From: Pleurocapsa sp. PCC 7319
GTDB taxonomy: Bacteria; Cyanobacteriota; Cyanobacteriia; Cyanobacteriales; Xenococcaceae
DNA length: 64,000 nucleotides
Direction of reading: 5' to 3'
NCBI RefSeq assembly: GCF_000332195.1
Contig: NZ_KB235922.1
Coordinates: 4,623,322 to 4,687,321 of the forward strand
The notes beneath the pieces are model-generated. The model was not told the origin of the DNA. It saw nothing but the letters and a program-made list of their open reading frames with translations, and ran no database searches. The position numbers and the translations under genes are program-made. Shown piece after piece: positions 34,838 to 39,952 of this stretch (its first letter is position 1; each line of letters starts with the position of its first letter).

Positions 34838-34900
34838 GGCGATCGCATTGAACTTTCTTTTCTGGCTGCTGTTCATGTTGCTAGAAAAAATAACTAAATT
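34838..34900 (+). repeat. GDRIEL repeat, copy 1
   Basis: A ~60-base segment starting GGCGATCGCATTGAACTT recurs at 36518 with about 85 percent identity by eye. In the same relative frame both copies read GDRIEL-x-FLAA. They look like 3' scraps of a duplicated gene and bracket the hspA to membrane-protein interval as direct repeats. Confidence 0.6.
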
Positions 34901-34904
34901 ACAA

Positions 34905-34936
34905 TAAAAAACCCAGTCACTACATGAGCAACCGGG
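34905..34936 (-). terminator. Terminator of hspA remnant
   Basis: On the minus strand CCCGGT (34931-34936) pairs with ACTGGG (34912-34917, one G-U), followed by a run of six T (34905-34911). It is placed 46 bases after the hspA stop, so this part of the original gene unit is preserved. Confidence 0.75.
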
Positions 34937-34982
34937 ATTCAATATTGATTAATATGACTGTTGATCGATTACCCTTAGAAGA

Positions 34983-35448
34983 TTATTCAGCAGCTTCTTC
35001 TTGTAAAAGATTTACTTTGACTACTTTGTTTTTTTCTTCTTCAGACTTAGGTAGAGTTAAATTGAGGATGCCGTCTTTGTAGTCTGCGGTAACATTAGTG
35101 TTTTGGATACGTGAGGGGAGAGGAATTACTCTTTGGAATTTACCGTAACGGAATTCAGTGCGAGTTTTACCATCTTCTTCTGATTTAGTTTCAGATTTTC
35201 TTTCCCCTGCGATCGCTACTCGATCTATCATTACTTGAATGTCTAAATCTTTGGCTGACATACCAGGAACTTCTAGTTTTATAGCACTACGAGAAAACAT
35301 TAGGACATTTTCTATTCCCTATTCCCTATTCCCTTTGAACCAATATATTATGTCCTAAGCTTAAAGCGTAATGCTATAGATTCAAAGCATCATCAGTTTC
35401 AGTTAATTCCGCAGCAGGAGTTTTAGAGAAATTACGAATTAGAAATTT
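34983..35448 (-). pseudogene. hspA: Small heat-shock protein hspA interrupted by MITE
   Basis: The alpha-crystallin domain is intact from LKLEVPGMSAKDLDIQV to LPKSEEEKNK. Directly upstream lies a 99-bp MITE (35280-35378). On its other side the frame continues as KTPAAELTETDDALN, the canonical sequence just before the crystallin domain. Removing the MITE and one TA copy restores ALNLKLEVPGM exactly. The present 105-codon frame starts with an ATG inside the MITE (35300, MFSRSAI). Further upstream a TGA at 35449 ends the remnant and the N-terminal arm is gone. Oligomerisation normally needs that arm, so chaperone activity is doubtful. Confidence 0.85.
35280..35378. mobile_element. MITE copy A, inserted in hspA
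   Basis: This 99-bp element has imperfect 28-bp terminal inverted repeats, from TATAGCACTACG to TTAGGACA and the mirror TGTCCTAA to CGTAATGCTATA. The centre holds three CCCTATT-type heptamer repeats. The TA at each end is the expected target duplication, since excision with one TA rebuilds the hspA frame. The TA target is typical of Tc1/mariner/IS630-type transposition. Its left end supplies the ATG now used by the hspA remnant. Confidence 0.9.
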
Positions 35449-35506
35449 TCAAGCACGACGATGATTGATATGCTGATTTTAATGGTTGAAATATTGAACA
35501 TTAGTT

Positions 35507-35743
35507 ATGTATCAACTAGAAAAGTGGCAACATTCAAGCTGGCAAAAAGATACTCGCTTTTACTTACTGGAATTATCCCAAGACCTATTTGGCAATTGGA
35601 TTATTAAACGCACCTGGGGCAGTGCCATCAAACAGGATTTTGGTCGCTCTAACTCCACAATTTGTCCCGACTATCAAACGGGTTTACTCTGGTACGAAAA
35701 ACAAGCTTCTCGTCGTCAGAAACGGGGATATGTCAGGAGGTGA
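35507..35743 (+). CDS. WGR-domain protein (78 aa)
   Basis: This small protein has the layout of the WGR domain: an N-terminal strand pair (RFYLLELSQDLFGNWIIKRTWGSA), then DFGRSNSTICPDYQTGLLWYEKQASRRQKRGY. The WG(R) signature is present as TWGSAIKQ. In eukaryotes and some bacteria this domain accompanies PARP or binds nucleic acid, and stand-alone bacterial copies have unknown function. It starts 58 bases from the end of the hspA remnant on the opposite strand and ends 54 bases before the next gene, possibly one unit. Confidence 0.75.
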   Translation: MYQLEKWQHSSWQKDTRFYLLELSQDLFGNWIIKRTWGSAIKQDFGRSNSTICPDYQTGLLWYEKQASRRQKRGYVRR

Positions 35744-35797
35744 AAATTTCTAACTTTTGCAAGACAGCCTCTTTGAGCATCAGTGGAGGTAAGTGAA

Positions 35798-36502
35798 ATG
35801 CAACGTCTGGCTCATCTGACATTAATCTTCGCTATTGTATTTGCTGTCTTTATCATCACTCCAGCTTTTCTCAGTGGTCAGTTTGCCCTTTATCCGTTAC
35901 TAAAAAATGGAGATGTTCTAGACCTTTTAACTTCCTTAGTTTTAATTCCTCTTTACTGGTTGCTGTTTCAAATTCATCCTCGACGTTCACCAAACCAAAA
36001 GGAGATGCTCGTGTTTCTTCTATTTGCCGCCCTGTGGGTTGAAGGTCAAGGTATGCACTTAGTCGCTAACTCCATCGGACATCTAACATCAGCCGATTCT
36101 GGCAGTGAAGTTCAACAACTGACTCATTTTTATGATGAAATACTCAGTCACTATATTTGGCATTTTGGACTTGCGGGCTTGTCTGCACTTTTAATTTATC
36201 GACAGTGGCAAAACCCTTTTATCAAGCAACGTTCGGGATTGAAATTTGAGATTACGGCAGGAATTATTCACGGGTTCAACTACTTTATCGATGTTGTAGA
36301 ATCGGCGACGACTATTCTAGGTGTCCCATTTGCTGTAGGAGTTGTCATTTTTACTTTGATTTGGGGACGACAACATTTACGCCAACAGCCGATTCTGGCT
36401 TTCTTCTTTGTGTCTTATTTGATCGCCTGCCTGTTCTTCTTGGGCTGGGGATTGTACTGGGGTGGACTACCGGAGTTTAGCGAGGTAGGAATTATTGATT
36501 AA
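35798..36502 (+). CDS. Polytopic membrane protein, function unknown
   Basis: I do not recognise a family. The protein has about 234 residues and seven membrane helices, starting MQRLAHLTLIFAIVFAVF. A GGAGGT ribosome-binding site at 35785 decides the ATG at 35798 over an upstream GTG at 35783. Loops include a conserved-looking His/Asp patch: GQGMHLVANSIGHL, HFYDEILSHYIWHFG and IHGFNYFIDVVESAT. Several His residues lie near membrane faces, suggesting metal or haem contact, but this is only an observation. It ends with WGLYWGGLPEFSEVG. Confidence 0.65.
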   Translation: MQRLAHLTLIFAIVFAVFIITPAFLSGQFALYPLLKNGDVLDLLTSLVLIPLYWLLFQIHPRRSPNQKEMLVFLLFAALWVEGQGMHLVANSIGHLTSADSGSEVQQLTHFYDEILSHYIWHFGLAGLSALLIYRQWQNPFIKQRSGLKFEITAGIIHGFNYFIDVVESATTILGVPFAVGVVIFTLIWGRQHLRQQPILAFFFVSYLIACLFFLGWGLYWGGLPEFSEVGIID

Positions 36503-39860: not shown

Positions 39861-39952
39861 TATAGCAATACGAACTTTTATTAGGACACTCATTACTCGT
39901 TACTTACGAGCAATCAAATAAACTTGTCCTAACGTAACTTTATACGGCTATA
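39861..39952. mobile_element. MITE copy B
   Basis: This 92-bp element runs from TATAGCAATACG...TTAGGACA on the left to TGTCCTAA...ATACGGCTATA on the right, with 28-bp imperfect inverted repeats. It matches copies A and C in the outer TATAGC and inner TTAGGACA boxes. It lies between the PLP enzyme stop and the next start (39962), so its right part is in the leader of that gene. Confidence 0.88.

Follow-up and report, generated by a model that had tools for sequence, protein, structure and literature searches.

Can a mobile repeat that cuts a gene also provide the remaining part with a new start? This question is raised by a locus in Pleurocapsa sp. PCC 7319, within a 64,000-nucleotide stretch of DNA (the window). 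The minus strand there reads TDDALN, then a short element with inverted ends, and then KLEVPGM, a sequence of hspA, which encodes a cyanobacterial HSP20 (small heat-shock protein). The original prediction was that a MITE had cut hspA and given its crystallin domain a new start codon, in an exon-like capture. We reach a different reading, to which we assign a probability of about 0.87: the locus carries a 5'-truncated, most likely non-functional hspA copy with a recent MITE insertion.

MITE insertion at a TA within hspA

The MITE copy, together with its two TA copies, occupies 35280-35378 on the minus strand (99 bp), with a core of 95 bp at 35282-35376 and a net insertion of 97 bp. Read directly, the element opens with TATAGCATTACG and closes with CGTAGTGCTATA on that strand, so that the core has the form TAGC...GCTA. 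Its arms (35280-35316 and 35342-35378, 37 nt each) form a 73% complementary inverted repeat, and TATAGCAYTACG is present at both ends. The folding of the element gave a z of -4.1, which was equaled by 0 of 200 shuffles. It is, therefore, a short element with terminal inverted repeats, as expected of a MITE, and its position between TDDALN and KLEVPGM was confirmed both by direct reading and by computation. Within it are three GGGAATA heptamers (35313-35333, minus strand), and the number of these units differs among copies.

The same genome gave at least 48 matches to a 100-bp element query, many of which are the heptamer array alone; this count is a lower bound, as 40 of 91 candidates were scored. 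The nearest other copy shares 99% identity across 98 bp. The number of matches and the identity of this copy indicate that the element is not a chance pattern, and the 99% identity makes the insertion look recent. Seventeen places were inspected, and similar copies lie at multiple unrelated places. Well-kept copies are 92, 99, 106, 113, 120 or 134 bp long, and these 7-bp steps fit whole CTATTCC/CTGTTCC heptamers. Two well-kept copies (L006 and L012) have a terminal TG in place of TA, two others (L201 and L202) carry a larger insert within the heptamer array, and four (L197, L200, L203 and L204) are partial, damaged or diverged.

The effect of the insertion on hspA can be read from its flanks. 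TA stands on both sides of the core, and a CTA leucine codon is split. When the flanks were joined by script around a single TA, with 97 bp left out, the result was ALNLKLEVPGM in frame, i.e. NFSKTPAAELTETDDALNLKLEVPGMSAKDLDIQ... / NFSKTPAAELTETDDALNLKLEVPGMSAKDLDIQVM..., and the predicted restoration was, thus, reproduced. Since the net length is 97 bp, the insertion shifts the frame; with the element in place, the hspA frame meets a TAG (CTA TAG) in the first bases of the element and ends there.

Relatives and paralogs provided the empty site. A blastn search covered 32 hspA loci (L001-L003 and L014-L042, with the self loci L004, L005 and L013 omitted). In 12 of them (L002, L014-L020, L022, L023, L028 and L042), both flanks match one hspA, and the element is found in 0 of these 12. 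The flank pieces adjoin or lie at most about 10 bases apart, as in L016 and L015 (at 1499/1500). At E <= 1e-5, the remaining 20 loci gave no match to the short upstream piece, and one of these (L034) had no match of any kind at this setting. An eight-row alignment displays the single TA in L016 and L020 as CATCTAAAACTAG, within CATCTAAAACTAGAAG; TA at both ends here versus a single TA in relatives marks a target-site duplication. The proposed comparison with relatives, thus, placed the flanks on one uninterrupted hspA (12 of 32 loci) and supported a MITE insertion at a TA inside the gene, with an empty site at all 12 two-flank loci. The possibility that relatives share this arrangement without a MITE was checked and did not overturn this result. 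These empty sites demonstrate MITE-like insertion of this heptamer-carrying element at TA in a Pleurocapsa-like cyanobacterium.

The interrupted hspA copy and its surroundings

On the 3' side of the element, hspA runs from KLEVPGM to its TAA (34983-35279, minus strand), open to the stop, with 98 codons that contain no stop or frameshift. It has an alpha-crystallin domain by its match to PF00011 (HSP20; E 5.8e-20, 71.7 bits against a cut-off of 20.8), which covers profile positions 10-100 of 102, with the first positions missing. The best matches of the fragment reach 85-92% amino acid identity in six of 12 same-genus genomes and are lower in the other six. Homology by blastn continues to 34889-34908 in nine of the 32 loci, and a terminator-like hairpin at 34912-34936 on the minus strand (one found versus 0.5 expected) was probably retained from hspA.

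The 5' side is much shorter. According to the blastn loci, the alignment and the joining of flanks, what remains is 35379-35438 on the minus strand (NFSKTPAAELTETDDALN and the C that begins the split CTA codon). The point where homology to hspA stops is 35433-35440 for 11 two-flank loci and 35421 for the twelfth, L042. Relatives have 51-55 residues (about 55) before KLE versus 19 in the window, and about 36 codons, the ribosome-binding site and the promoter region are gone. From a TGA to the element, the only potential start codon in the hspA frame is one TTG, with ATG and GTG both absent; therefore, the fragment is without a start of its own regardless of the MITE. The N-terminal arm and own start signals of a functional HSP20 gene are, thus, lacking here. 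An arm starting at its own Met was found by pattern search in 27 of the 32 hspA loci and is also present by eye in L022 and L033; it is interrupted in L017, and L016 and L026 have no normal start.

The next stretch, 35439-35506, comprises the junction zone and the leader of the next ORF, and a match in genome G013 begins at 35466. The TGA lies here (35449-35451) and, as predicted, is in frame with the upstream remnant. It had also been taken as a sign that the arm, separated from its domain, was decaying further. This part did not hold, since the TGA lies past the end of hspA homology and is, therefore, not evidence of arm decay. The arm is missing instead, with 19 of about 55 residues kept and the leader of another ORF following them. 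The alignments, thus, indicate that the window holds a displaced or truncated piece of hspA and not a whole gene split in two.

Two of the 32 loci deserve separate mention. In L026 (G013:C1), the third locus without the usual N-terminal start, the frame upstream of DALTP is unrelated. In L017 (G002:C12), an hspA of the same genus, a different short palindromic repeat interrupts the gene a few codons after the ATG; TTTTGGGTATGAGTATTCACACCCAAAA lies within an insert that is bordered by GTAAG on both sides and shifts the ATG out of frame. The repeat pattern occurs five times in its own genome at <=3 mismatches (L206-L209 among them) and 0 times in the genome of the window.

The surroundings of the fragment do not point to a conserved place. 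A conserved 78-codon ORF (35507-35743, plus strand) is divergent from the fragment, with homologs at 80-92% amino acid identity in L044-L049 and lower in L050-L052. It is followed by a 239-codon ORF (35783-36502, plus strand), and neither ORF has a Pfam match at E <= 0.01. Homologs of the two lie together in G025 (L050/L148), the sole retained pair seen. At E <= 1e-10, hspA was found in 0 of six regions with a homolog of the 78-codon ORF (L148-L153) and in 0 of eight with a homolog of the downstream SDR gene (L158-L165), where some of the stretches end at contig ends; the location of the fragment is, therefore, not conserved. Conversely, 0 of four hspA regions (L154-L157) contained the 78-codon ORF or the SDR gene. 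Conserved synteny was, thus, discarded as a guide to the ancestral place, because SDR, 78-codon ORF and hspA homologs do not occur together in the fetched stretches.

Another possible explanation is that a shortened hspA was already working before the MITE arrived, with a cut common to L016 that was kept by selection until the MITE broke the gene. L016 (G005:C353, from a same-genus genome; its sequence equals L056, Pleurocapsa sp. MO_192.B19) has its hspA cut at nearly the same base, beginning about GGTAATTTCTC, and no other row lies closer to the window in tree path (0.22, 89% identity). Its branch dN/dS is also low, at 0.077, compared to 0.064 for L067 and about 0.21 for the window fragment (a triplet, with pairwise values combined by hand). 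However, the sequence before the cut differs, being tRNA-Phe and tRNA-Pro in L016, whereas in the window it is the 78-codon ORF leader. Furthermore, no starred set (at most half of the rows) in the tree includes the window row, and L016 derives from a metagenome assembly. We consider a shared, selected cut unlikely. At L016:1267-1460, hspA is joined to the sequence after the tRNA-Phe and tRNA-Pro genes, and this join may lie within a further, cut tRNA.

The value of about 0.21 for the window is raised yet far from 1, and the damage may be younger than most of the branch. Changes unique to the window comprise four nonsynonymous and 0 synonymous ones, in two codons, compared to totals of 16 and 23 across nine other rows; these counts are too few for a test. 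This substitution pattern fits late relaxation, and a low value is also expected of a mostly conserved gene.

A search for a second hspA, which had been suggested, found three further HSP20 frames open in the genome (146, 157 and 155 codons). Because of these, the fragment is probably redundant. In five rows from relatives (G005:C192, G014:C186, G022:C236, G022:C49 and G025:C45), hspA-like copies are broken by internal stops or have split frames; the family may, thus, often lose extra hspA copies to decay.

Under the truncated-copy reading, the fragment most likely reflects ordinary decay within a multi-copy gene family. Either a deletion or the movement or duplication of a fragment would have rearranged the gene, so that the part from about codon 37 to the stop, along with its terminator, came to lie beside an unrelated divergent ORF. 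Before or after this truncation, a TA-targeting MITE entered the CTA leucine codon and duplicated the TA. The insertion at once placed a TAG stop in the hspA frame (CTA TAG), and the ATG within the element end would be incidental.

The 105-codon frame

This ATG (35298-35300, bases 17-19 from the end of the core) opens a frame of 105 codons on the minus strand (34983-35300), which reads MFSRSAI and then KLEVPGM and is open to the natural stop. The prediction was, thus, correct that the element end carries an ATG and that the frame is real. Its central claim, that the MITE gave the crystallin domain a new start codon, found no positive evidence. If that were so, the frame would be translated as a shortened small heat-shock protein. 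The ATG and the open frame exist, most of the HSP20 profile is matched, a terminator-like hairpin lies downstream, and 98 codons without a stop or frameshift also fit a gene in use. A recent insertion explains those open codons equally well, however, and the start signals and the domain itself argue against translation.

There is no Shine-Dalgarno-like sequence in the 17 bases before the ATG (GAATAGAAAATGTCCTA), in contrast to AGGAG, GGAGG or AAGGA in the corresponding place of L002, L014, L015, L018 and L020 in the alignment. Promoter-like sites were not above chance in a scan of sigma-70-type sites (two versus 2.8 expected in 34850-35850), and the sole minus-strand site sits within the 78-codon ORF. 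Structure matching starts at residue 17 of the 99-residue HspA chain 6ewn_A and at residue 57 of wheat Hsp16.9 (1gme_A); therefore, the frame lacks the first part of the alpha-crystallin domain. The seven residues from the element end (MFSRSAI) stand in for this part, which we take to hold the beta-2 strand used for dimerization. Compared to cyanobacterial HspA and HSP20 proteins (PF00011; PDB 6ewn), the frame has the alpha-crystallin sequence from KLEVPGM onward but no N-terminal arm and no domain start.

Other copies of the element were also considered, and 11 of the 17 inspected were tested for frames. The same ATG in six other copies opens frames of only 9, 15, 24, 28, 28 and 22 codons, and four copies have no ATG in the tested context. 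On the basis of the 11 copies tested, the element was rejected as a general donor of start codons. The longest frame through the empty site has 122 codons at the window copy and 34-71 codons at nine other tested copies. At L009, a 330-codon frame runs through the empty site, where the site lies three codons past the opening stop and before the first ATG.

Together, these data make translation of the 105-codon frame quite improbable, and the hspA fragment is most likely unexpressed. An element end that supplies an ATG does not by itself justify the claim of a new gene. The term exon-like capture also does not apply, since the insertion breaks the frame and its host is a gene fragment. We also regard it as improbable that the MITE end serves as the translation start of a small heat-shock protein that lacks the arm and acts as a modulator of the three remaining HSP20 proteins. 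Well-kept copies do vary by 7-bp steps, but a heptamer phase switch, in which gain or loss of a unit turns hspA on and off, is ruled out because the TAG precedes the array and the ATG at 35300 follows it, so that unit number alters neither frame.

Known elements and the repeat family

Nezha elements are about 100 bp long, have inverted ends with TA at both, and are present in many copies without a transposase of their own. The element described here is Nezha-like in each of these respects, a likeness of form and not a sequence-level comparison. Nezha of cyanobacteria is cited among bacterial MITEs in a review (PMC10969869). BrickBuilt of Porphyromonas gingivalis, described as a MITE with a minisatellite (PMC4596501), likewise has a tandem repeat array inside a MITE. 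Its units are 23 nt, whereas the unit here is 7 bp and, on its own, has matches at many other genomic places.

In-frame fusions of small repeats with genes have been described, above all for Rickettsia palindromic elements (PMC10969869), and enterobacterial RU elements were found fused in frame to other reading frames, one of which was termed a "trial and error fusion" (PMC2759123). As in those cases, a small mobile repeat in a coding sequence adds residues to a predicted frame. Unlike those in-frame fusions, the insertion here ends the frame of its host, which is itself a gene fragment. The present case is a weaker example. Judging from titles and the openings of abstracts, none of the papers found on MITEs, start codons and pseudogenes concerned this case.

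Judging by its ends and TA target, the element probably depends on an IS630/Tc1-type transposase for its movement. Of the 56 PF13358 (IS630-type) matches in the genome, 30 were examined by inverted-repeat scan with the three best pairs each. No full-length transposase partner with the ends of the element was found among these 30. Four inverted-repeat elements of 963-965 bp (L170-L173) have ends that share only the first six bases, TATAGC, and then differ. Sites of TATAGCANTACG with one mismatch numbered 105 forward and 106 reverse versus 67 and 72 for the backward control; therefore, many of these sites arise by chance.

In the 27 family genomes, G014, G017, G019 and G020 have 78-82% matches over approximately the whole element among the matches listed. 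The variable heptamer array of the MITE (CTATTCC/CTGTTCC), for which L198, L201 and L202 are examples, also matches alone at many genome places. Lastly, a hand count among the matches listed gave 54 exact TATAGCAATACG sites in the genome of the window (G000), such as C7:4663182-4663193 (window 39861-39872). These sites resemble the element end TATAGCAYTACG and may belong to a related, larger element family.
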